38,458 nt of DNA from Fusobacterium sp. DD2 (lineage in GTDB: Bacteria; Fusobacteriota; Fusobacteriia; Fusobacteriales; Fusobacteriaceae): NCBI RefSeq assembly GCF_018205345.1, contig NZ_JADRHM010000017.1, positions 1 through 38,458 of the forward strand. Direction: 5' to 3'. The notes beneath the pieces were generated by a model, which saw only the letters and a list, made by a program, of their open reading frames with translations, was not told the origin of the DNA and ran no database searches. Positions 4,875 through 34,667 of this stretch are shown one piece after another (position 1 is the stretch's first letter; each line of letters opens with the position of its first letter). The translations under genes were made by a program, and so were the position numbers.

Positions 4875-4903
4875 TTGAATTTAATATTTCAATGTGCTAT
4901 ATT
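4875..4903 (+). promoter_or_regulatory. Promoter of the fluoride-riboswitch transcript
   Basis: TTGAAT (4875-4880) and TATATT (4898-4903) are separated by exactly 17 bases. The expected transcription start near 4910 falls at the first base of the riboswitch aptamer, which supports the assignment. Confidence 0.7.
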
Positions 4904-4908
4904 CTATC

Positions 4909-4966
4909 AAAGGGAATGAAGTTCTCCCTTGGTAAAACCAAAACCGCTGATTAGCTGATGACTTCT
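4909..4966 (+). ncRNA. Fluoride riboswitch (crcB motif)
   Basis: The RNA has the family layout. A first hairpin, AAGGGA/TCCCTT, has a loop carrying ATGAAGTTC. It is followed by an extra TTGG/CCAA hairpin, the conserved AAAACCGC, a short GCT/AGC stem and the conserved GCTGATGACTTC at 4954-4965. The loop GAAGT can pair with ACTTC to form the characteristic pseudoknot. The AACCGCTGATTAGCTGATGACTTC region is very close to known crcB aptamers. Its 3' strand is also the 5' arm of the terminator at 4954-4993, so fluoride binding should block termination (ON switch). The controlled gene is a cation/proton antiporter, a known class of fluoride-riboswitch target. Confidence 0.92.
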
Positions 4967-4993
4967 GTTAAAAGCAGAGTTATCAGCTTTTTT
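4954..4993 (+). terminator. Fluoride-riboswitch expression-platform terminator
   Basis: GCTGATGACTTCTG (4954-4967) pairs with CAGAGTTATCAGC (4975-4987), followed by six T. The 5' arm is shared with the aptamer's conserved 3' strand, so aptamer and terminator are mutually exclusive. Confidence 0.88.
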
Positions 4994-21877: not shown

Positions 21878-23131
21878 TTATCTATAGAGAATTCCTATAT
21901 CTCTTCTCATATATTTATCTTTAAAATCTATTTTATCAGCATCTGCATAAGCTTTTTTTCTTGCTTCATCAAGATTTTTTCCAAGAGCTACAACATTTAA
22001 AACTCTTCCACCATTTGTAAGAAGTTTTCCATCTTCTGATTTTGCTCCTGCTACAAATGTCATTCCATCTACTTTATCAAGTCCTGTTATCTCATACCCT
22101 TTTGCATATTTCTTAGGATATCCACCTGATGCAAGTACAACACAGCAGGCTGATTTGTCACTCCATTTAACATCCAGAGTATCTAATTTTTTCTCAAGAC
22201 CTTTTTGAAGTATCTCAATAAAATCAGATTCAAGTAATGGAAGTACAACTTGAGTCTCAGGATCACCAAGTCTCATATTATATTCCAGAAGATAAACTCC
22301 TTTTTCAGTTATCATAAGTCCAAAGAATATGAATCCTGCAAAATCCATTTTTTCCTCTTTTATTCCTTTAAGAGTTGGATTTAATATATCTTTTAGAAAA
22401 GTGTCATAGACATCTTTAGTCACATATGGATTAGGAGCTATTGTCCCCATTCCACCTGTATTAAGACCTGTTTCTTTTTCTCCAATTTTTTTATGGTCTT
22501 TAGCACTTATAAAAGGCAGAATAACATTTGAATCTGTTACAGAAAGTATTGATGCTTCAACACCATCTAAAAATTCCTCTACTACTATTTCCTGTCCTGC
22601 ATCATTAAATACCTTATCCACCATAATCTCATCAACAGCTTTTAGAGCTTCTTCAAGATTTTTACAGATAAGAACTCCTTTTCCTGCTGCAAGTCCACTT
22701 GCTTTTACAACTAGAGGAAAATCAGATTTTTTTATATACTCTTTTGCTTTTAGAGGATCCTTAAATATCTCATATGTAGCAGTTTTTATTCCATATTTTT
22801 TCATAAAATCTTTAGCAAATGCTTTAGATCCTTCAAGCATAGCAGCCTTTTTATCTGGACCAAATATTTTTAAACCTGCAGCTTTAAATTTATCTACAAT
22901 ACCATCAACTAAAAGTTCTTCACTTCCAACTATTGTAAGGTCAATTTTATTTTTAACTGCAAAATCTAAAAGCTCTTCTGTTCCCTTTAAATTTACATTT
23001 TCTCCTTTTTCTAAAAGAGATATTCCTCCATTTCCTGGAGCACAATATATTTTTTCTACATCTTTATTTTCACTTATTTTCCAGCAAATGGCATGTTCTC
23101 TTCCACCACTACCAACTACAAGTACTTTCAT
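21878..23131 (-). CDS. purD: Phosphoribosylamine-glycine ligase
   Basis: GAR synthetase: joins phosphoribosylamine and glycine with ATP, step two of IMP synthesis, in the cytoplasm. The 417 residues match the family. The N-terminal VVGSGGREHAI block is at 4-14, the ATP-grasp core includes KASGLAAGKGV and EEFLDGVEAS, and the metal-binding end reads EYNMRLGDPE. AAGGAGAG precedes the ATG. It is the last gene of the nine-gene purine operon, 18 bases after purH and just before the terminator. Confidence 0.97.
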   Translation of the reverse strand: MKVLVVGSGGREHAICWKISENKDVEKIYCAPGNGGISLLEKGENVNLKGTEELLDFAVKNKIDLTIVGSEELLVDGIVDKFKAAGLKIFGPDKKAAMLEGSKAFAKDFMKKYGIKTATYEIFKDPLKAKEYIKKSDFPLVVKASGLAAGKGVLICKNLEEALKAVDEIMVDKVFNDAGQEIVVEEFLDGVEASILSVTDSNVILPFISAKDHKKIGEKETGLNTGGMGTIAPNPYVTKDVYDTFLKDILNPTLKGIKEEKMDFAGFIFFGLMITEKGVYLLEYNMRLGDPETQVVLPLLESDFIEILQKGLEKKLDTLDVKWSDKSACCVVLASGGYPKKYAKGYEITGLDKVDGMTFVAGAKSEDGKLLTNGGRVLNVVALGKNLDEARKKAYADADKIDFKDKYMRRDIGILYR

Positions 23132-23149
23132 CTATTCTCTCCTTAATAA

Positions 23150-24652
23150 TTAGTGTTTGAAATGTCTCATTCCTGTAAATACCATGGCAATTCCATTTTC
23201 ATTACATGCATCAATAGATTCTTTATCTCTAATTGATCCTCCTGGTTGTATTATAGCTTTTATTCCTGCTTTTGCACAACTATCTACAACATCTCTAAAT
23301 GGGAAGAAAGCATCTGATGCTAATATTGCTCCTTCTACTCTCTCTCCGGCTCTTTCTATTGCCTGGTTAGTTGGCCATATTCTATTTGTTTCTCCATTTC
23401 CTATTCCAATAGCCATTTTATCTTTTGCAACTACAATTGCATTTGATTTAACATGTTTTACTATTCTCATTCCAAATTCAAGATCACTCATCTCTTTAGG
23501 AGTAGGCTCTTTTTCTGTAACTACAGTGTAGTTGTTAGAAAACTCTTTATCTTCATCCTGAACAAGTATTCCACCATCTACTTTTACCATATTAAGTTTA
23601 TCTTGAGGTTTTGTATTACATTTTATAACTCTTAAATTCTTTTTACTCTTTAATACTTCCAGTGCTTTTTCACTAAATCCTGGAGCTATAACAATCTCAA
23701 GGAAAATTTTAACAAGTTCTTTTGCTGTTGCCTCATCAACTTCTCTATTCAAAGCAACTATACCACCAAATATAGATACAGGATCACATTCATAAGCTTT
23801 CATATATGCTTCATATACATCTTTTCCAAGAGCCGCACCACATGGAGTAGAGTGTTTTAATCCACAGCATGCTGGTTCTTCAAATTCATTTGCAACTTTC
23901 CAAGCTACATCCATATCTCTTATATTATTAAAAGATAATTCTTTTCCATTTAGTTGTTTGAAGTTTTTCATAGCACCATTTTCAGTTGTAGATACATAAT
24001 ATGCTGCTTTTTGATGAGGGTTTTCTCCATATCTCAAATTCATAGCTCTCTCATAAGATAGACTTAGATATTTTGGCATCTCCTCTTCTAATAAGAAATT
24101 TGAGATAGCTGCATCATATGCTGATGTAAGATTGAAAACTTTTCCAGCCAATCTTTTTCTAGTTGCAAAAGTAACTTCCCCTTTTTCCATCTCTTCTTTA
24201 ACTACTTTATAATCTTCAATATCACTTATTACAACAACATCTTTAAATGATTTTGCTGCTGATCTAAGCATTGTTGGTCCACCAATATCTATAAATTCTA
24301 CTTTTTCCTCAAATGAAATATCTTCATTTACTTTTTTAAAGAAAGGATAAAGATTTACAACAACCATATCTATTGTGTCTATGCCTCTTTCTTTTAAAGT
24401 ATTCATATGTTCCTTGTTATCTCTAATAGCAAGTATTCCACCATGAATAACTGGATGTAATGTTTTTACTCTTCCATCTAACATTTCAGGTGCCTTTGTA
24501 ATAGAGGCAACTTCAATTACTGGAATCCCATTTTCCTTTAGATGTCTGTATGTTCCACCAGTTGATATTATCTCCATTCCTTTTTCAATTAGAAATTTTG
24601 AAAATTCAACTACTCCAGTTTTATCGTATACTGATATCAATGCTCTTTTCAT
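23150..24652 (-). CDS. purH: Bifunctional AICAR transformylase / IMP cyclohydrolase
   Basis: Catalyses the last two steps to IMP using 10-formyl-tetrahydrofolate. The start is the ATG at 24652, which overlaps the purN stop (TAATG) and has GAGGAG upstream; a TTG two codons earlier is unlikely. The 500 residues comprise an N-terminal cyclohydrolase (MGS-like) domain with ISVYDKTG and the STGGT phosphate loop, then the transformylase with Lys266-His267 (GLKHSTPCG) and IQPGGSIRD near the end. It ends in RHFKH as usual. The formyl donor needed here is made by the fhs product encoded first in the same operon. Confidence 0.97.
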
Positions 24653-25236
24653 TAACAAACTCCTCTACTTTCCATTATTATTTTTATCGATTGTGGAAGC
24701 AATTCATGCTCCTGAACAAGAACTCTTTTTTGCAGTGTGTCTGGTGTATCCCCTTCCAAAACTGGAACTCTTATCTGTTTTATAATCTCACCGCTATCTA
24801 CACCTGCGTCAACAAAATGTACTGTGCAACCACTGACTTTTTCTCCTGCACCAATAACTGCCTCATGAACTCTTATTCCATACATTCCAGGTCCGCCAAA
24901 TTTTGGTAAAAGAGATGGATGAATATTTATAATTTTTCCTTTCCATTTCTCTACAAAATCCTTATCGATAATTGATAAAAAACCAGCCAGGACAATTAAA
25001 TCAACATTCTTTTCAGAAACTATCTTATCTATAGTTTTACACAGTTTTTCTTTTAGGATTTTTCTATCCAGGATATACCCCTGAATCCCAGCCTCTACAG
25101 CTCTTGTTACTCCGTAGCATTTTCTATCTCCAATTACCACTTCTATCTTACAGTTAAGCTCGTTATTTTTAACTTTATCAATGATAGATTGAAGATTTGT
25201 TCCTCCTCCTGAAACTAAAACTGCTATCTTAAACAT
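24652..25236 (-). CDS. purN: Phosphoribosylglycinamide formyltransferase (folate-dependent)
   Basis: Transfers a formyl group from 10-formyl-THF to GAR. The 194 residues contain SGGGTNLQ (9-16), the catalytic Asn104 and His106 in NIHPSLLP, and the Asp-containing loop DAGVDSG (143-149). No ATP-grasp PurT-type enzyme is present, so this step depends on folate. The gene overlaps the end of purM by 13 bases and uses a weak AAAAAGG site, which suggests coupled translation. Confidence 0.97.
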
Positions 25237-26225
25237 AGACCTTTTTCTCCCTTTTGCACATATCCAATTTCATATGCATCTTCACCAAATTCTTTTAAAT
25301 CTCTGATGACTCCATCTTTATCTTTAGGATCCACTACCAATACAAATCCTACTCCCATATTAAATGTACCATACATCTCATCTTCAGGTACATCTCCTTT
25401 TTTCTGAAGGTATCTGAAAATTTCTGGAACTCTTATTTTGTCTTTAAAGACAACAGGTTGATGTCCTTCACTTATAGTTCTAGGAAGATTTTCTGGTAAT
25501 CCTCCACCTGTAATATGAGCCATTCCTTTAATATTATATTTTTCAAGTAATGATAAAACAGGTTTTACATATATTTTTGTAGGTGTTAACAGTGCTGCAC
25601 CTATTGTAGTATCGTGATATTTTTCACTATAATCTGTAACTATCTTTCTAACAAGAGAGAATCCATTACTGTGCACTCCTGATGAAGGAATTGCTATTAA
25701 GATATCTCCCTCTTTTGTAGTGCTTCCATTTACTATTTTATCCTTTTCAACTACCCCAACACAGAATCCTGCAATATCATAGTCTCCTAGCTTATAAAAA
25801 CCAGGCATTTCAGCAGTTTCTCCACCTATAAGTGCTGCTTCAGATTGAAAACACCCTTCAGCTACACCTGATACAAGATCTGCTGCTACCTCAGCTTCAA
25901 GTTTTCCACAAGCTAGATAGTCTAGGAAAAATATTGGTTTTGCACCATGGCATAATACGTCATTTACACACATTGCCACAGCATCAATTCCAACTGTATC
26001 ATATTTTCTAGTTTTGAAAGCTATATCTAATTTTGTACCTACACCGTCAGTTCCTGAGACAAGTACAGGATTTTTATACCTTCCAAGTTCATACATAGCA
26101 CCAAAACTTCCAAGTCCATTTAATACCTGTTTGTTTTGTGTTCTTGCTACTGCTTTTTTCATCAGTTCTACTGCTTTGTAACCCTCTTCCTTATCTACTC
26201 CAGCTTCTTTATACGAAATTGACAT
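25224..26225 (-). CDS. purM: Phosphoribosylformylglycinamidine cyclo-ligase (AIR synthetase)
   Basis: Closes the imidazole ring by ATP-driven conversion of FGAM to AIR. The 333 residues are typical of PurM. Recognisable blocks are SGTDGVGTKLDIAF, MCVNDVLCHGAKPIFFLDY, GGETAEMPGFY and HITGGGLPENLPR. AGGAGGAAAAG precedes the ATG. It lies 17 bases after purF and overlaps purN. Confidence 0.97.
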   Translation of the reverse strand: MSISYKEAGVDKEEGYKAVELMKKAVARTQNKQVLNGLGSFGAMYELGRYKNPVLVSGTDGVGTKLDIAFKTRKYDTVGIDAVAMCVNDVLCHGAKPIFFLDYLACGKLEAEVAADLVSGVAEGCFQSEAALIGGETAEMPGFYKLGDYDIAGFCVGVVEKDKIVNGSTTKEGDILIAIPSSGVHSNGFSLVRKIVTDYSEKYHDTTIGAALLTPTKIYVKPVLSLLEKYNIKGMAHITGGGLPENLPRTISEGHQPVVFKDKIRVPEIFRYLQKKGDVPEDEMYGTFNMGVGFVLVVDPKDKDGVIRDLKEFGEDAYEIGYVQKGEKGLCLR

Positions 26226-26242
26226 CTTTTCCTCCTAATTTT

Positions 26243-27640
26243 TTATTCTTCAGTTGGCGTATCTACTGGATAAACTCCATTAAAACATCCTACGCAATAT
26301 TCGCAACCTTTTAATGATTTATACATATTTTCAAGAGATAGATAATCCAATGTATCTGCATTTATCTCTTTTCTTATCTCTTCTACTTCAAGTCTTGCAG
26401 CAATAAGCTCATTTCTGTGAGCTGTATCAATACCAAAATAACATGGATATTTTACTGCTGGTGATGCTGATAGAAAGTGAACCTCTTTTGCTCCTGCTCT
26501 TCTTACTATCTCTATCAATATTTTACTTGTTGTTCCTCTTACTAAAGAGTCATCAATTATAATAACTCTTTTTCCTTCAATATTTACTTTCAATGGATTT
26601 AATTTTACCATTACAGCTTTTTCTCTCAATTCTTGAGTAGGTTTGATAAATGTTCTTCCAATATATTTATTCTTAATCAATCCTACACCATAAGGTATTC
26701 CGCTCTCTTTAGCATATCCAATTGCTGCAGGAATTCCAGAATCTGGTACTCCTATAACAATGTCAGCATCTATTTTTTTCTGTCTTGCAAGAAGTTTTCC
26801 AGCTTCAACTCTTGATTCATATACATTAAGTCCATCTATTACACTATCAGGTCTTGCAAAATAAATATGTTCAAATGAGCACGGAGCTTTTTTATTATTT
26901 TCTGAATATTTAACAGATTTAACTCCATTTTCATCTATTATAACCATTTCACCTGGTAGTATATCTCTTATAAATGTTCCACCTACTGTATCTATTGCAC
27001 AAGATTCAGAAGCCAGTATATATGCTCCACACTTTGTCTGTCCAAGACACAGAGGTCTTATTCCATATGGGTCTCTTACTCCAATAAGTTTATTATCAGC
27101 AAGTATTGTAAGTGCGTAAGCTCCTTTTATAGCTCCAACTGTGCTTCTTATTGCCTCTTCTACATCTTTTGTAGATTTTCTAGCTATCATTTTTATGATA
27201 ACTTCTGAGTCCAGTGTTGTACTAAATGTTGAACCACCATCTTCAAGAAGCTCTCTTATTACCTTTGCATTTGTAAGATTTCCATTATGTGCAACTGCTA
27301 TTTGTCCCCATTTATATCTACTCTCTAGAGGTTGAGCATTTTCAAGTCTGCAAGCACCTGTTGTAGCATATCTAACGTGGCCAATGGCCGCGTTTCCAAC
27401 AAGATTTTCTAATATTTTCTCATTGAAAACGTCAGCAGCCAGACCCATTCCTTTATATGTTACTATTTCACCAAATTTTGAAACTGATATTCCTGCACTT
27501 TCCTGTCCTCTGTGCTGAAGTGAATAAAGTCCATAATATGTAAGTTGAGCTACCTCTTTAATGTCTTTAGCATAAACTCCAAACACTCCGCACTCTTCTT
27601 CCATTTTATCTTTTAAATCAAAGAAATCTGTGCAGTTCAT
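26243..27640 (-). CDS. purF: Amidophosphoribosyltransferase
   Basis: The committed step: PRPP plus glutamine to phosphoribosylamine. The 465-residue protein has a 16-residue propeptide before Cys17 (EEE-CGVFGV), the N-terminal glutaminase nucleophile released on maturation, as in the B. subtilis-type enzyme. The PRPP site VIIIDDSLVRGTTS lies near 355-368. Cysteines in APCSF, YPCYF and the final CEYCVGC fit the four ligands of the oxygen-sensitive 4Fe-4S cluster of that subclass, suited to an anaerobe. The ATG overlaps the purC stop by one base (TAATG), with GGGGGC upstream. Confidence 0.97.
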   Translation of the reverse strand: MNCTDFFDLKDKMEEECGVFGVYAKDIKEVAQLTYYGLYSLQHRGQESAGISVSKFGEIVTYKGMGLAADVFNEKILENLVGNAAIGHVRYATTGACRLENAQPLESRYKWGQIAVAHNGNLTNAKVIRELLEDGGSTFSTTLDSEVIIKMIARKSTKDVEEAIRSTVGAIKGAYALTILADNKLIGVRDPYGIRPLCLGQTKCGAYILASESCAIDTVGGTFIRDILPGEMVIIDENGVKSVKYSENNKKAPCSFEHIYFARPDSVIDGLNVYESRVEAGKLLARQKKIDADIVIGVPDSGIPAAIGYAKESGIPYGVGLIKNKYIGRTFIKPTQELREKAVMVKLNPLKVNIEGKRVIIIDDSLVRGTTSKILIEIVRRAGAKEVHFLSASPAVKYPCYFGIDTAHRNELIAARLEVEEIRKEINADTLDYLSLENMYKSLKGCEYCVGCFNGVYPVDTPTEE

Positions 27641-28356
27641 TATTCAGCCCCCAATCTCTTTAGTACTTCGATGTATGCTTCTTCTATTCCTCCTAGGTCT
27701 CTTCTAAATCTATCTTTATCTAGTTTTTTACCTGTTTCTTTATCCCATAATCTACAAGTATCTGGAGTGATTTCATCAGCTAGAAGAATTTCCCCTTTAG
27801 CATTTTTACCAAATTCAATTTTGAAGTCTATTAAAGTGATTCCAATTTTATCAAATGCAGCTTTTAAAAGATCATTTATTTTAGCTGTAGTTTTATATAT
27901 TTCAGCTAATTCTTCATAAGTAGCAAGTCCAAGTGCTACAGCATGGTGGTCATTAATTAATGGATCTCCATATTCATCATTTTTGTAGCAAATTTCAAAT
28001 ATTGTGTTACAAGGTTTTGTTCCTTCAGGCACTCCGACTCTTTTTGCCATTGATCCTGCAATAACGTTTCTAACTATTACTTCAAGAGGGAATATTTTAA
28101 CTCTTTGACATAATTGATCTCTGTCATTTAATACTTCTACTAAGTGAGTTTTAATTCCATTTTTTTCAAGCATTCTAAATAGCATTGCAGTAATTTTGTT
28201 GTTCATTATTCCTTTATTTACTATTGTTCCTTTTTTTGCTCCATTTCCAGCTGTTGCATCATCTTTGTAGTGAATAATTACTAAATTATCATCTGTAGTT
28301 GTGTAAACTTGTTTTGCTTTTCCTTCATAGATAAAATCTTTTTTTTCTACTGCCAT
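27640..28356 (-). CDS. purC: SAICAR synthetase
   Basis: Ligates aspartate to CAIR with ATP. The real start is the ATG at 28356 after GGAGG; the TTG at 28371 belongs to the ribosome site. The 238 residues carry [41 protein letters not shown] and [14 protein letters not shown], all standard. The SAICAR cleavage step needs purB, which is not in this window. The end couples to purF. Confidence 0.97.
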
Positions 28357-28404
28357 TTTTAATACCTCCAATAAAATTTAAATATTTTATATATTAATTA
28401 AATA

Positions 28405-28884
28405 CTATAACTCTACTCCCGAACCATTTTCAGCTATAAATTTCTCTTTCATTTCTTTTCTGAATTTTTTTAATTTTTCTTTTAATTCAGGATATTTCAA
28501 TGAAAGCATCTCCACTGCAACCATTCCAGCATTATATGAATTATTTAGTCCTACTGTTGCAACTGGAATTGATTTAGGCATTTGAACTATTGAAAATAGT
28601 GCATCCAGTCCATTAAAAGCAGCTTCTATTGGTACACCTACCACAGGCAGTATAGTTTTTGATGCTATCACACCAGGCAAATGTGCTGCAAGTCCTGCTC
28701 CAGCTATAATTACTTCACAACCGTTCTTCTCTAAATCTGCTAATGTTTCTTCAAGCTTTTCTGGAACTCTATGAGCTGATAATACATGAGCACTATATTC
28801 AACTCCAAATTCCTTTAAACATTTAGCAGCTCCACGCATCTTTTCTGTGTCTGACTTACTTCCAAAGATAATTGCTACTTTCAT
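28405..28884 (-). CDS. purE: 5-(carboxyamino)imidazole ribonucleotide mutase (PurE)
   Basis: Acts between AIR and CAIR. The start is the ATG at 28884, preceded by TAGGAGG; an upstream in-frame ATG at 28920 lies inside purL. The 159 residues have GSKSD (8-12), SAHR with His38, and AGLAAHLPG, the pattern of class I PurE, which normally works on N5-CAIR made by PurK. No purK is in the operon. The enzyme may depend on a distant purK, or on high bicarbonate, or carry out direct carboxylation. The gene lies 13 bases after purL. Confidence 0.95.
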   Translation of the reverse strand: MKVAIIFGSKSDTEKMRGAAKCLKEFGVEYSAHVLSAHRVPEKLEETLADLEKNGCEVIIAGAGLAAHLPGVIASKTILPVVGVPIEAAFNGLDALFSIVQMPKSIPVATVGLNNSYNAGMVAVEMLSLKYPELKEKLKKFRKEMKEKFIAENGSGVEL

Positions 28885-28897
28885 TTTTCCTCCTAGG

Positions 28898-31800
28898 TTA
28901 CTTAAAATATTTAACTCCATTTACAAATATTTTCTGATCTTTGTTACCATTTATATTTTTAAAAATGTTGTTACCATATCTTTCTGAGTGTCCCATCTTA
29001 CCAAATATTCTACCATCTGGTGATGTAATACCCTCTATTGCACAAGTAGATCCATTTGGATTGAATCTAAACTCATTTGTAGGTTTTCCCTCAAAATCTA
29101 CATATTGAGTTGCAACTTGTCCATTTTCAAATAATTTCTTAACAACTTCATCATTAGCAAAGAATCTTCCTTCACCATGTGAAACTGCAATTTCAAACTG
29201 TTCTCCTGGTTCCATATCTGCAAGCCATGGTGATTTATTTGAAACAACTTTAGTAGAAACGATTTGAGATACATGACGTCCTATTTTATTAAATGTAAGT
29301 GTTGGTGAATCTTCAGTTACTTTTCCTATCTCTCCATAAGGTAATAATCCTGATTTTATAAGAGCCTGGAATCCATTACAGATACCAAGTATCAATCCAT
29401 CTCTTTTTAGGAATCTGTCAAGTGCTTCAGCTATTTTTGGATTTGTAAGTACTGTTGCAATAAATTTACCTGATCCATCTGGTTCATCTCCTGAGCTGAA
29501 TCCACCTGGAAGCAGTAATATTTGAGAATTATCAAGTTCTTTTACCATTCTTTCAATTGAATCATTGATAAAGTCCTGAGTTATATTTCTAAATACAAGG
29601 ATATTTGATGTAGCTCCTGCTTTTTCAAATGCTCTTGCAGAATCATATTCACAGTTTGATCCAGGGAATGCTGGTACTAAAACTCTTGGTTTTGCAACTT
29701 TATTCTTACATACAATTATCTCTTTGTTCTTATATGGTTGCCAGATATAGTTTTCTTTATGTTCCTCAGTCTTGTAAGGAAATACAGGTGCTAATTTATC
29801 AAGCCATGCCTTTTCTCCCTTAGCCATCTCTATAACAACATCTCCAACTATAACTTCATATTTATCAATTGTCTTACCAATTAATTGAACATTTTCTCCA
29901 TGAAGCTCTCCTTCACTTTCAACTATAAATGTTCCATAGTTAAATCTGAATAGCTCATCACCTAAATTTTCTATCTTTGCACCTATTCTATTACCAAAGG
30001 TCATTTTACTAATCGCTTCTGCAACTCCTCCATTTCTTAAAGTAGTTGCTGCAACTATCTTTTTATTCTTAATATTTTCATATATATATTCAAAATTTTT
30101 CTTTAATTCTTCTATATTAGGCATACAGCTCTCAAGCATATGATGTCTTATAATATAGATATTGTGTCCAGCTTTTTTAAACTCTGGTGATATAATCTCA
30201 CTTGCTTTTACTGGTGCCACTGCAAAAGAGATTAATGTAGGTGGAACATGAATATCATTAAATGTACCACTCATAGAGTCCTTACCACCTATTGCTGGAA
30301 TTCCAAATCCTACCTGAGCTTGTATACTTCCTAGTAATGCTGCAAATGGTTTACCCCAATTGATTGGATTTGTACCTAACTTTTGGAAGTATTCCTGGAA
30401 TGATAATCTTACTTTTCTATAATCCCCACCAGCTGCAACTATTTTTGCAAGTGATTCAACTACTGCATATGCTCCTCCATGAAATTGTGACCATGATGAT
30501 ATATATGGATTGTATCCCCATGAAATAGCAGAAGCTGTATCAGTTTCTCCTTTTAATAGAGGTATCTTTTGAACGCTTACATCAGTAGGTGTCATCTGAT
30601 ATTTTCCTCCAAATGGCATCAATACTGTAGTACCACCTATAGTAGCATCAAATCTTTCTATCAATCCTTTTTGTGATGCAACATCTAATGATGAAAGCAT
30701 ATTGAACCATTTATCTTCAAGATTTTTTCCCTCATATCTATCTTTTAATAATGGATTTTCTTTCAAATCTATATCTTTTACTTCTACATCTGTTTCCTGA
30801 GTAACACCATTTGTATCTAAGAAATCTCTACAGATATCAACTATCTTTTTACCTTTCCATTTGATAACCAGTCTATTATCTGCTGTTACAACAGCTACTG
30901 GTGTAGCTTCAAGGTTTTCAGCAGCTGCAAGTTTCATAAATTTATCTTCATCTTTTGCTTCTATTACAACTGCCATTCTTTCTTGTGACTCAGATATTGC
31001 AAGTTCTGTACCACTTAATCCCTTGTATTTTACTGTTACCACATCTAGATTGATATCAAGCCCTGGTGCAAGTTCACCTATTGCAACTGAAACTCCTCCA
31101 GCACCAAAGTCATTACATTTCTTAATAAGTCTTGTTACTTCAGGATTTCTGAATAATCTTTGTATCTTTCTCTCTTCTGGTGCATTACCCTTTTGCACTT
31201 CAGCACCACATAGAGTAAGTGATTTATCTGTATGCTCTTTAGAAGATCCTGTTGCTCCTCCACAACCATCTCTTCCTGTTTTACCACCTAAAAGAATTAC
31301 TACGTCTCCAGGTTTTGGATCATCTCTTCTTACCCAGTCAGCTGGAACTGCTCCTACAACTGCTCCAACTTCCATTCTTTTAGCCTTGTATCCATCGTGA
31401 TATATCTCAGCTACATGTCCTGTAGTAAGTCCTATCTGGTTACCATAAGCTGAATATCCTGCAGCTGCACCTGTAGTAATTTTCTTTTGAGGTAATTTTC
31501 CAACCATAGTATCTTCAAGCTTTTCTAATGGATTTCCTGATCCTGTAACTCTTATTGCCTGGTAAACATATGCTCTACCAGATAGAGGGTCCCTAATCGC
31601 TCCACCCAGACATGTTGAAGCCCCTCCAAATGGTTCTATCTCTGTAGGATGGTTATGAGTTTCATTTTTAAACATCAATAACCATTTTTCTATTTTTCCA
31701 TCTACGTCTACATCAATATAAACTGAGCATGCATTTATTTCATCTGAAACTTCTAAATCATCAAGTTTTCCATTCTTTCTCATCTCTTTACCACAAATAG

Positions 31801-32626
31801 TTGCCATATCCATAAGTGATAAGTATTTTTTAGATATTCTATCTCCATGAACATCTTCTCTCATTTTTACATATTCATCAAAAGCCTTTTGAAGAACATC
31901 TCCAAATTTACTTTTTGGAAATACTATATTTTTTATCTTAGTTTCAAATGTAGTATGTCTACAGTGATCAGACCAATATGTATCCAAAACTTTGATTTCT
32001 GTTTCTGTTGGATCTCTGTGTTCCTGATCTTTAAAATATTTTTGTATGAATTTTAAATCTTCAAGTGTCATTGCCAAACCATAACTTTTGATAAATTCCC
32101 TCAATTTATCTTCATCATAGTCTATAAATCCTTTTAAAACTGGAACATCCTGTGAAGCTTCCCCTGCTTCGATTTCAAGTTTATCAAGTGATTTTTCTCT
32201 CATTTCAACTGGGTTTATAATATATTTTTTTACTTTTTCCAGTTGGTTATCATCTATATTTCCCTCTAATATGATGACCTTCCCACTTGTTACAACAGCA
32301 TCTTGATTTTTATCTGATATAAGTCTTAAACATTGCATAGCAGAGTCTGCTCTTTGGTCAAATTGACCTGGTAAAAATTCAACTGCGAAGTATTTTGCTC
32401 CCTTTGCATCTAATACATCACTAACATTGTCTGTTACTACTTCTGAAAATATAACTTTCTTAGCAGCTTCTAATTCAGCCTTCTCAATACTGAAAATATC
32501 ATAACAATTTACAATTCTTACTCTTTTTAAATCAGTTAAGTTTAAACTCTCTCTAAGCTCTTCACCTAATCTTTTAGCCTCTAAATCAAAACCTGGTTTT
32601 TTTTCAACAAAAATACGGTAGTTCAT
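28898..32626 (-). CDS. purL: Phosphoribosylformylglycinamidine synthase, single-chain
   Basis: Converts FGAR to FGAM with glutamine and ATP. At 1242 residues it is the long type joining the PurS-like, PurL and PurQ (glutaminase) parts in one chain, in contrast to the three-subunit enzyme of Bacilli. The synthetase core has TYWSDHCRHTTF near 215, ETHNHPTEIEPFGGA, and GKDSMSGTF. The C-terminal class I glutaminase has LPGGFSSGDEPDGSG, Cys1083 in GICNGFQ, and the His-containing SHGEGRF. GGAGGAG precedes the ATG. It follows fhs by 46 bases without a terminator. Confidence 0.97.
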   Translation of the reverse strand: MNYRIFVEKKPGFDLEAKRLGEELRESLNLTDLKRVRIVNCYDIFSIEKAELEAAKKVIFSEVVTDNVSDVLDAKGAKYFAVEFLPGQFDQRADSAMQCLRLISDKNQDAVVTSGKVIILEGNIDDNQLEKVKKYIINPVEMREKSLDKLEIEAGEASQDVPVLKGFIDYDEDKLREFIKSYGLAMTLEDLKFIQKYFKDQEHRDPTETEIKVLDTYWSDHCRHTTFETKIKNIVFPKSKFGDVLQKAFDEYVKMREDVHGDRISKKYLSLMDMATICGKEMRKNGKLDDLEVSDEINACSVYIDVDVDGKIEKWLLMFKNETHNHPTEIEPFGGASTCLGGAIRDPLSGRAYVYQAIRVTGSGNPLEKLEDTMVGKLPQKKITTGAAAGYSAYGNQIGLTTGHVAEIYHDGYKAKRMEVGAVVGAVPADWVRRDDPKPGDVVILLGGKTGRDGCGGATGSSKEHTDKSLTLCGAEVQKGNAPEERKIQRLFRNPEVTRLIKKCNDFGAGGVSVAIGELAPGLDINLDVVTVKYKGLSGTELAISESQERMAVVIEAKDEDKFMKLAAAENLEATPVAVVTADNRLVIKWKGKKIVDICRDFLDTNGVTQETDVEVKDIDLKENPLLKDRYEGKNLEDKWFNMLSSLDVASQKGLIERFDATIGGTTVLMPFGGKYQMTPTDVSVQKIPLLKGETDTASAISWGYNPYISSWSQFHGGAYAVVESLAKIVAAGGDYRKVRLSFQEYFQKLGTNPINWGKPFAALLGSIQAQVGFGIPAIGGKDSMSGTFNDIHVPPTLISFAVAPVKASEIISPEFKKAGHNIYIIRHHMLESCMPNIEELKKNFEYIYENIKNKKIVAATTLRNGGVAEAISKMTFGNRIGAKIENLGDELFRFNYGTFIVESEGELHGENVQLIGKTIDKYEVIVGDVVIEMAKGEKAWLDKLAPVFPYKTEEHKENYIWQPYKNKEIIVCKNKVAKPRVLVPAFPGSNCEYDSARAFEKAGATSNILVFRNITQDFINDSIERMVKELDNSQILLLPGGFSSGDEPDGSGKFIATVLTNPKIAEALDRFLKRDGLILGICNGFQALIKSGLLPYGEIGKVTEDSPTLTFNKIGRHVSQIVSTKVVSNKSPWLADMEPGEQFEIAVSHGEGRFFANDEVVKKLFENGQVATQYVDFEGKPTNEFRFNPNGSTCAIEGITSPDGRIFGKMGHSERYGNNIFKNINGNKDQKIFVNGVKYFK

Positions 32627-32672: not shown

Positions 32673-34337
32673 CTAGAATAACCCGTCTATTCTTCCATTC
32701 TCATCAATATCAATCAGTTCTGCTGCTGGTTTTTTTGGTAGTCCTGGCATATCTATTATATCTCCTGCCATAGCTACTATGAATCCTGCTCCTGCTGATA
32801 TTCTAAGTTCATTTATTGTAACAACAAAGTCTCTAGGTCTTCCTAAAAGCTTTGCATCATCAGATAACGACTTTTGTGTTTTAGATATACAGATTGGTAA
32901 GTTTTCATATCCAAGTTCCTCTATTGTTTTTAACATCTTCTTAGCATTCTTACCAAATTCAACCCCAGATGCTCCATATATCTCTTTACATATTTTTTCA
33001 ATTTTTTCCTTAACACTTAATTCAAGTGGATATAATGGTTCAAAGTTATCAATTCCCTTATCAATCTCTTTTATTACCTTTTCAGCTAATTCTTCTCCAC
33101 CTTTTCCACCTTTTTCCCACACTTCACATAGTGCAACTGGTACATTTAACTCCTTACAATGTCTTTCAATAAATTCTATCTCTTTATCAGTATCAGTTAT
33201 GAATTTATTAATTGCAACTACTACTGGAACATTATATTTTTGCATATTTTCAATATGTTTATCTAGATTTTCAATTCCTTTTTCAAGTGCATCTAGATTT
33301 TCTTCTTTCAATTCTATTGCTCCACCGTGATGTTTTAAAGCTCTTATAGTTGCTACTACTACAATACAGTTTGGTTTTAAATTTCCTTTTCTGCATTTGA
33401 TATCAAGGAACTTTTCTGCTCCAAGATCAGCAGCAAATCCTGCTTCTGTAATTGTATAATCTGATAGTTTCATTGCCATCTTTGTAGCTAAAATTGAGTT
33501 ACATCCATGTGCAATATTAGCAAATGGTCCACCGTGAATAAGTACTGGTGTATTTTCAAGTGTTTGCACAAGGTTTGGTCTTATTGCTTCTTTAAGTAGT
33601 GCTGTTACAGCTCCTTCAATATGTAAATCTCCAACTTTTAATGCTTTTCCATCTCTTGAATATGCAAATATCATATTCTTTATTTTATCTTTAAGATCCA
33701 TTAAAGAGTTAGCAAGACATAAAGCTGCCATAATTTCAGATGCAACTGTTATTTGAAATGAGCTTTCTCTAGGAATTCCATTTGCCTTTCCACCAAGTCC
33801 AACTACTACTTGTCTTAAAGCTCTGTCATTCATATCTACTGCTCTTTTCCAACTTATTTTAGTAACATCAATGTTTAGAGCATTTCCTGAATTGAGATGG
33901 TTATCAATGCAAGCTGCAATAAGATTGTGTGCGGCACCTATTGCATGTAAATCCCCAGTAAAGTGAAGATTTATATCTTCCATAGGAATTACCTGTGCAT
34001 AACCTCCTCCTGTTGCTCCTCCTTTGATTCCAAATACAGGTCCTAGTGAAGGCTCTCTCAATGCTGCCATTGATGATTTTCCCATCCTGTTCATAGCTTG
34101 AGTTAATCCTACTGTTACAGTAGATTTTCCTTCTCCTGCTGGTGTCGGTGTAATAGCTGTTACAAGTACAAGTTTCCCATCTTTTTTATGTTCTAATCTT
34201 TTTAAAACATTCAGATCAACTTTTGCCTTATACTTACCGTAAGTATCAATATCATCTTCTGAAAGTCCTAGTCTCTTAGCAATTTCTACTATTTTGACCA
34301 TTTTAGCTTCCTGTGCTATTTGAATATCTGTTTTCAC
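32673..34337 (-). CDS. fhs: Formate-tetrahydrofolate ligase
   Basis: Makes 10-formyl-THF from formate, THF and ATP in the cytoplasm. The 554 residues are the usual length. The nucleotide loop [11 protein letters not shown] is at 63-73; other family blocks are [23 protein letters not shown] and [12 protein letters not shown]. The start is a GTG at 34337, six bases after GGGAGG. As first gene of the purine operon it supplies the formyl donor used by PurN and PurH, so C1 supply and purine synthesis share one control region, the riboswitch-like leader at 34361-34631. The GTG start comes 24 bases after the terminator's T-run. Confidence 0.97.
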
Positions 34338-34360: not shown

Positions 34361-34411
34361 AAACAAAAAGTCTAAGTGCACACTTATGCTGACATCAGCA
34401 CACACTTAGAC
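34361..34411 (-). terminator. Attenuator terminator of the purine operon leader
   Basis: On the minus strand GTCTAAGTG (34411-34403) pairs perfectly with CACTTAGAC (34378-34370). An inner TGCTGA/TCAGCA stem is closed by TG, and TTTTTGTTT follows. It stands between the aptamer and fhs, so it must be conditionally passed for the operon to be expressed. Its 5' arm is also the end of the leader ORF. Confidence 0.92.
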
Positions 34412-34487
34412 CTTCATTTATTATTATTATGTTATATAAATTTTTTAATTTAATTACTGATGTTCCATGTTTTAATCTAAATAACAT
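34395..34487 (-). CDS. 30-codon leader ORF of the purine operon
   Basis: ATG at 34487-34485 with an ideal AAAAGGAG six bases upstream; stop TGA at 34397-34395. The product starts MLFRLKHGTSVIKL, has four consecutive Ile codons (all ATA) near codons 20-23 and ends NEGLSVC. The last five codons and the stop (GGT CTA AGT GTG TGC TGA) are the 5' arm of the terminator hairpin. A ribosome at the end of this ORF would therefore cover that arm and allow read-through. The ribosome site is buried in the hairpin at 34493-34530. Nothing suggests an independent function for the peptide. Translation is predicted, not proven. Confidence 0.6.
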   Translation of the reverse strand: MLFRLKHGTSVIKLKNLYNIIIINEGLSVC

Positions 34488-34492
34488 TTCAA

Positions 34493-34530
34493 ACTCCTTT
34501 TAGTACTCATTCACATATACCAAAAGGAAT
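34493..34530 (-). promoter_or_regulatory. Shine-Dalgarno-sequestering hairpin of the leader ORF
   Basis: ATTCCTTTTGGT (34530-34519) can pair over 12 positions (two G-U) with ACTAAAAGGAGT (34504-34493), hiding the leader's AAAAGGAG behind a 14-base loop. A competing partner, TTTTTAGTA (34551-34543), can pair with TACTAAAA (34505-34498) instead, leaving the GGAG partly free. Two mutually exclusive pairings of this kind are what a switch needs. Confidence 0.5.
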
Positions 34531-34563
34531 ATAGTTCCATGTTACTAAAAACTACATCACTTT

Positions 34564-34628
34564 TCCCATAGCAGCTAATTTAAGGTTAGCCGTAGAAACT
34601 CCTGACCATATTACAGGTATATATGAGA
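34564..34628 (-). ncRNA. Guanine-riboswitch-like (purine) aptamer, contracted variant
   Basis: Stem P1 is TCTCATA/TATGGGA. P2 is CCTG/CAGG with loop AATATGG, P3 CGGCTAA/TTAGCTG with loop CCTTAAA. The loops keep the GG and CC that form the kissing interaction, and J2/3 has GTTTCTAC. The base matching C74, which selects guanine, is C (GCTATGG). Compared with the xpt-type aptamer it lacks one pair at the base of P2 and the nucleotides equal to C53 and A73 next to the pocket, and P2 has a U-U mismatch at the loop. Its position before fhs-pur fits a purine sensor. Class is strongly supported; ligand is open. Confidence 0.8.
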
Positions 34629-34637
34629 GTATTTATT

Positions 34638-34667
34638 TTTATATCTAAAGGTTATCACATATCTCGA
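34638..34667 (-). promoter_or_regulatory. Probable promoter of the fhs-pur operon
   Basis: On the minus strand TCGAGA (34667-34662) and TATAAA (34643-34638) are 18 bases apart. The predicted start near 34631 is just before P1 of the aptamer, as expected. The -35 is a 4 of 6 match only. Confidence 0.45.

Follow-up and report, generated by a model that had tools for sequence, protein, structure and literature searches.

The leader of a de novo purine operon

The window, by which we mean the whole stretch of 38,458 nucleotides analysed (Fusobacterium sp. DD2, contig NZ_JADRHM010000017.1), carries on its minus strand a complete purine pathway in the order fhs-purL-E-C-F-M-N-H-D (names other than fhs were assigned by eye). 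Between an aptamer and fhs lie, in order of transcription, a hairpin enclosing a Shine-Dalgarno (SD) sequence, a short leader open reading frame (ORF) and an intrinsic terminator. The features are as follows.

34549..34646, minus strand: purine riboswitch aptamer RF00167 (guanine-type), P1-to-P1 34564-34628; cmscan 64.3 bits, E 4e-9
34616..34626, minus strand: UCAUAUAUACC, the P1 5′ strand, J1/2 and the start of P2; target of the anti-P1 element
34517..34530, minus strand: AUUCCUUUUGGUAU, the anti-SD arm, which shares GGUAU with the anti-P1 element
34511..34521, minus strand: anti-P1 element GGUAUAUGUGA; forms 11 base pairs with the 5′ strand of the aptamer at -12.6 kcal/mol
34493..34506, minus strand: GUACUAAAAGGAGU, arm carrying the SD (AGGAG at 34498-34494)
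34395..34487, minus strand: leader ORF MLFRLKHGTSVIKLKNLYNIIIINEGLSVC, 30 codons from ATG, ending in a TGA within the terminator 5′ arm
34361..34412, minus strand: intrinsic terminator GGUCUAAGUGUG...GUGUGCACUUAGACUUUUUGUUU; covariance model R1 matches 34365-34412
32673..34337, minus strand: fhs, formate-tetrahydrofolate ligase, the first structural gene
28898..32626, minus strand: purL (long type), identified by eye from the sequence
21878..28920, minus strand: purE, purC, purF, purM, purN, purH and purD, in this order, named by eye

The window also contains a fluoride riboswitch aptamer (RF01734, 48.8 bits) on the plus strand at 4903-4974.

A previous inspection of the letters alone (the sequence-only reading) had described four elements stacked in this leader: an aptamer resembling the guanine riboswitch (34628-34564), a hairpin hiding a perfect SD (34530-34493), an ORF started by that SD (34487-34395) and a strong terminator whose 5′ arm is made of the end of that ORF. 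Each is present where it was placed, the terminator hairpin starting at 34412. The arrangement is more than chance: the whole leader folds more stably than 200 shuffles (z = -4.0), the probability that the ORF frame stays open is ∼3% (for this leader alone), and the layout is conserved phylum-wide.

The aptamer is a typical RF00167 member, its score exceeding the curated cut-off of 37 bits, and it is found upstream of fhs in all 12 genomes of the genus. Inspection by eye identified C74 and a J2/3 (GUUUCUAC) of the kind expected of the guanine-specific pocket (C74, U51, U47). Position 73 is G rather than A in every fhs leader of the genus. The xanthine-II, guanine-II and guanosine variants of this aptamer are defined by changes in J2/3 or J3/1 (PMC9295807); no such change was seen here by eye, and a variant aptamer with another ligand was rejected. 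No further structured RNA was detected in the leader, RF00167 alone exceeding its gathering score. A hairpin directly after the aptamer was also rejected: it is weak (-8 to -9 kcal/mol) and was flagged in G000 and G019, and in none of the other ten members of the genus.

A leader ORF that runs into the terminator

The terminator hairpin of the window folds at -21.1 kcal/mol and is followed by CUUUUUGUUU. Its 5′ arm, GGU CUA AGU GUG UGC UGA, consists of the last five codons of the ORF plus the stop, just as originally described. A simple terminator scanner failed to call it, probably because of a 6-nt bulge; the homologous hairpins are mostly near-perfect.

The genus falls into two branches, clade A (G000, G018-G022) and clade B (G023-G028), and in all 12 genomes fhs is preceded by an SD-led ORF, 27-42 codons long, and by the terminator (example peptides: MLFVDKKRKKLKNRLKKVFINKGIIVNLRVDINNGLSVY in G019 of clade A; MLSHKRIKKK..KV in clade B). 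Across six genera, all 27 fhs leaders with the terminator contain an SD-led ORF. These ORFs are 16-51 codons long and occur in all three frames relative to the 5′ arm; the end of the stop codon lies -1 to +39 nt from the start of that arm. The ORF frame is free of stops up to the terminator (in three g14 leaders the stop is right at the terminator); the other two frames of the same DNA contain 1-8 stops each. The sequence-only reading had held that its case would fall were homologous leaders to keep the terminator and lose or break the ORF; a search of these 27 leaders returned no such case. Within each branch of the genus the ATG and the arm stay a fixed distance apart modulo 3 (77/95/101/104 and 79/82/85 nt) despite at least five length changes; no such constancy holds between aptamer and ATG.

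The peptide itself is conserved weakly at most. Synonymous changes are no commoner than expected in clade A and mildly commoner in clade B, the sequence drifts and changes frame, and there is no significant Pfam match. That both sequence and frame drift, yet the ORF stays open as far as the terminator arm, suggests that selection maintains translation and not the peptide itself.

Several ways in which such an ORF might sense metabolites were considered and rejected. Amino-acid attenuation of the trp type finds no shared codon run (by inspection), nor was an antiterminator found. Sensing of ATP by an A-rich ORF is at odds with the composition of the leaders: A-richness is not common to g8, g9 and g12, and the A fraction ranges from 0.27 to 0.62 across genera. 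Sensing of formyl-Met through fhs would be expected to produce positive feedback if translation causes read-through.

Pairing partners of the terminator arm

In a conventional riboswitch the aptamer or its platform would pair directly with the terminator arm and the ORF would be incidental. The sequence-only reading had found no stretch of the aptamer suited to this role, and our calculations agree: in the window leader the best upstream partner of the arm pairs at -10.3 kcal/mol, weaker than the mean of shuffles (-11.6 kcal/mol), and neither an RNA-only antiterminator nor a platform in which P1 competes with the terminator was found. Of the 17 leaders tested, 15 likewise have no upstream partner for the arm that clearly outdoes shuffles, and no fhs leader with this terminator has lost its SD-led open frame. 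The same type of terminator does appear to be used conventionally elsewhere. In the guaA/guaB leaders of g7 and g13 (L212, L213, L214, L215) the aptamer is followed directly by a CUAAG terminator, with no ORF, and the P1 3′ strand apparently pairs with the arm as a classical antiterminator (by eye), a natural contrast to fhs. For the fhs leaders we regard direct control of this kind as highly improbable.

Predicted coupling of the aptamer to the leader Shine-Dalgarno

The hairpin at 34530-34493 hides the leader SD as had been claimed: 14 continuous pairs between AUUCCUUUUGGUAU and GUACUAAAAGGAGU bury AGGAG. The sequence-only reading had further proposed that ligand binding alters access to this ribosome site. 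A predicted structural basis for that proposal exists in all 12 members of the genus, and it includes a link from aptamer to ORF that the reading had missed. In the window leader an 11-nt complement of the aptamer P1 5′ strand (not the 3′ strand) overlaps the SD hairpin, with a pairing energy attained by 6 of 1000 shuffles. In clade A a complement of 11-12 nt to the aptamer 5′ strand is kept at the SD hairpin in 6/6 leaders (UCAUAUAUACC/GGUAUAUGUGA in the window). Clade B uses the P1 3′ strand (UGGGUGAAGUA/UACUUCAUCUG) in five leaders, with the segment that hides the start codon sitting within the hairpin of the 3′-strand partner; G023 pairs best via the 5′ strand. An anti-P1 helix is thus present in 12/12 leaders of the genus, and in nine of the 11 tested its best duplex is matched by ≤0.6% of shuffles (G020, 2.8%; G023, ∼5%).

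Because the 5′ half of the clade A anti-P1 element is part of the anti-SD arm, the helix that breaks the aptamer and the hairpin that hides the SD are mutually exclusive. When either state was enforced, the SD was more accessible in the anti-P1 state in 12/12 ensembles and the AUG in 11/12 (about unchanged in G019), a gain that is partly built in, since forcing the anti-P1 helix opens the SD partly by construction. On passing from the aptamer state to the anti-P1 state in the window leader, accessibility rises from 0.01 to 0.64 for the SD and from 0.06 to 0.89 for the AUG; the two states are equal in ensemble energy (-41.0) without ligand. Even without ligand, the aptamer state is the more stable one by 3-7 kcal/mol in G022 and most of clade B. 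Covariation in the SD hairpin (five sequences) was no better than in column shuffles.

The leader therefore has, as a structural prediction, the defining property of a translational platform, ligand-dependent SD sequestration exclusive with an anti-aptamer helix, with the difference that it applies to the leader ORF and not to a structural gene. Outside the genus, toggling P1 alone left access to the SD unchanged, and we claim the coupling of aptamer and SD for the genus only. In G082 the gap between P1 and the leader SD is 0 nt, which leaves little room there for any other platform. At the level of sequence and predicted fold, we regard it as established that the elements exist and are conserved, that the pairings exclude one another and that an RNA-only antiterminator is lacking. 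The riboswitch seems to be wired into the ORF and terminator in the window's genus.

Distribution across the phylum and beyond

An automated survey of aptamer loci in the phylum found an SD-led ORF ending at a terminator in 31 of 36 leaders of fhs, purL and purE, and in one of 41 other aptamer leaders, the sole case being a probable glutamine synthetase III. The remaining loci in the latter set precede permeases, adenosine deaminase, guaB and others. The difference is pronounced (Fisher p = 3e-15), although the test ignores kinship and the counts share ancestry; shuffling leads one to expect ∼1 ORF among the 36 and 0.1 among the 41. A conserved SD-led ORF that ends in or beside an intrinsic terminator, the mark of a ribosome-dependent leader-peptide attenuator, is a feature both of all 27 fhs leaders with the terminator and of these 31 de novo purine aptamer leaders. 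At L012 a purine aptamer, a 47-codon leader ORF and a terminator precede a likely type III glutamine synthetase (the GSIII_N match is weak, below cut-off).

The terminator covariance model also matched in a second family: it picked out fhs leaders in four genomes there, each with an aptamer and an ORF, as well as purL leaders in which aptamer, ORF and terminator are all present. The purE leaders of two further genera have the same layout with unrelated terminator sequences. One family member's leader is identical to a leader from an Ilyobacter assembly. In genus g5 a ZMP/ZTP riboswitch (RF01750) precedes fhs instead (L176, L159, L168).

Beyond the phylum, 30 guanine-riboswitch loci, purE among them, were drawn from genomes chosen as Firmicutes. 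Among the 28 that could be placed there was one marginal ORF flag, before an AzgA-type permease.

These comparisons bear on a further explanation, in which a trans-acting RNA-binding protein recognizes the CUAAGU/ACUUAG stem and the ORF is a passive spacer or encodes a functional small protein. The base of the stem is indeed strongly conserved in sequence across genera with seemingly unrelated ORFs. However, similar stems occur away from evident leaders in g8 and g14, so that the terminator looks partly lineage-typical; the purE leaders share the layout despite their different terminators; and the peptides drift, change frame and lack a significant Pfam match. We give this explanation very little credence, less than any other considered here.

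Matches of the terminator model to g8 repeats were rejected as leaders, being generic terminators. Short, near-identical copies of GGTCTAAGTGTAAT...ACTTAGRCTTTTT (L220, L221, L227) are scattered in g8 genomes and are perhaps dispersed terminators.

The ORF and terminator apart from the aptamer

The pairing of ORF and terminator also occurs without an aptamer: at fhs in five genomes (G043, G049, G050, G053 and G058) and apparently, by eye, at hpt and at an FAD-oxidoreductase gene (hpt has a clear phosphoribosyltransferase match, whereas the oxidoreductase identification depends on a weak one). In these aptamer-less leaders the ORF ends in or beside the same terminator (FAD-dependent oxidoreductase: L216, L218, L219, L222, L224, L226; hpt: L217, L225, L228), and the hpt and oxidoreductase leaders would extend ribosome-dependent attenuation in the family to a broader set of genes. 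Conversely, in purE leaders and in several purL leaders the aptamer is immediately followed by a terminator-like hairpin, and a second terminator comes after the ORF.

Both observations are to be expected if there are two independent controls in series, the aptamer acting by some other route and the ORF with its terminator forming a separate ribosome-dependent attenuator that senses translation or purine-nucleotide status by way of RNA polymerase-ribosome coupling, as in pyrBI. Within the genus this is harder to sustain. No conserved terminator or antiterminator follows the aptamer there besides the SD-hiding element, so that under independent control the aptamer would lack an output; the anti-P1 element overlaps the SD hairpin; and the genera share no conserved run of A that might sense ATP (A fraction as above). 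We consider independent controls in series rather unlikely, though a serious competitor. Yet because the module is found without an aptamer, and elsewhere behind aptamers that have their own terminator, the riboswitch is probably one of two inputs to it, the second probably being something like translation capacity, or purine nucleotides acting via the coupling of polymerase and ribosome.

A proposed riboswitch-ribosome relay

The explanation we favour, and hold with somewhat better than even confidence, is a relay riboswitch: the aptamer gates the leader ORF, whose translation decides the fate of the terminator before fhs-purLECFMNHD. Binding of guanine (or hypoxanthine) would stabilize P1 of the aptamer and keep the anti-P1 element from invading. 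GGUAU would then be free for the anti-SD arm and the leader SD and AUG would be hidden; the leader would stay free of ribosomes, so that the terminator would form and transcription would end before the operon (off). Without ligand, the anti-P1 element would invade the aptamer 5′ strand and break the SD hairpin, allowing a ribosome to translate the ORF and cover the terminator 5′ arm near the stop, such that the polymerase reads through (on). The identity of the ligand, translation of the ORF, the timing of ribosome relative to polymerase and this off/on polarity are what we infer from the arrangement. The overall interpretation offered by the sequence-only reading, in which the ligand governs the leader's ribosome site and translation then decides termination, is partly supported.

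In E. coli, a stop codon placed a few bases from an intrinsic terminator cut termination from ∼90% to <10%, and efficiency was restored once translation was removed (PMC4824070). Terminators in the first ∼100 bp of an E. coli ORF mostly escape repression by the ribosome unless the polymerase pauses (PMC4824070). The arm of the window terminator begins only 77 nt downstream of the AUG, and the relay would therefore depend on a pause or on tight coupling. The step from ribosome to terminator is the weakest link of the relay.

Relation to known systems and significance

Riboswitches are usually classed as transcriptional or translational. Leader peptides of the trp/his type provide a different logic, in which the position of the ribosome on the leader ORF decides the terminator; the fusobacterial leader differs from these in that neither a regulatory codon run nor an antiterminator hairpin was found in it. 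Closer is E. coli pyrBI, where a short leader ORF enters the terminator, a ribosome close behind the polymerase blocks the hairpin, and UTP is sensed through polymerase pausing. Both systems serve a nucleotide-biosynthesis operon with an ORF that runs into the terminator, and the attenuator proposed here would work alike; pyrBI, however, has no riboswitch, whereas initiation on the fusobacterial leader is apparently gated by the aptamer. The Firmicutes RF00167 guanine riboswitches (purE, xpt and others) share the aptamer family, the kind of gene and the expected off-switch logic, but at the loci placed here any terminator follows the aptamer without an intervening leader ORF, the one marginal flag aside.

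Parts of the proposed relay have been described separately. The B12 riboswitches of M. tuberculosis with upstream ORFs (metE, ppe2) control the SD of a leader ORF, and ppe2 needs its translation; the relay there proceeds by termination-reinitiation at an AUGA overlap, with no intrinsic terminator (PMC11260477). In the SAM-II leader of S. meliloti metA an SD-hiding riboswitch is followed by AUG1 and an intrinsic terminator, the latter out of reach of any aptamer structure; AUG1 was found not to be used, however, and no effect of the ribosome on the terminator was shown (PMC9373788). We found no published purine riboswitch acting via a leader ORF on a terminator in the open-licence literature.

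The layout is widespread in one phylum. It accompanies whichever biosynthetic gene comes immediately after the aptamer leader, be it fhs, purL or purE, and almost all the purine-transport and salvage leaders surveyed lack it. This recurrence at genes for making purines, and near absence from those for transporting them, makes it look like a real, undescribed relay between riboswitch and ribosome. That the Fusobacteriota as a whole control de novo purine synthesis in this way, the aptamer reaching the terminator only via the ribosome on the leader ORF, seems to us an evenly balanced proposition. If true, a translational switch would drive a transcriptional decision via the ribosome. A single metabolite would then have outputs of both kinds, and the terminator would also be open to another signal (translation or nucleotide status). 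The relay would constitute an expression platform of a new kind. It would also mean that transcription and translation are effectively coupled in Fusobacteriota, evidence for such coupling outside the well-studied phyla.
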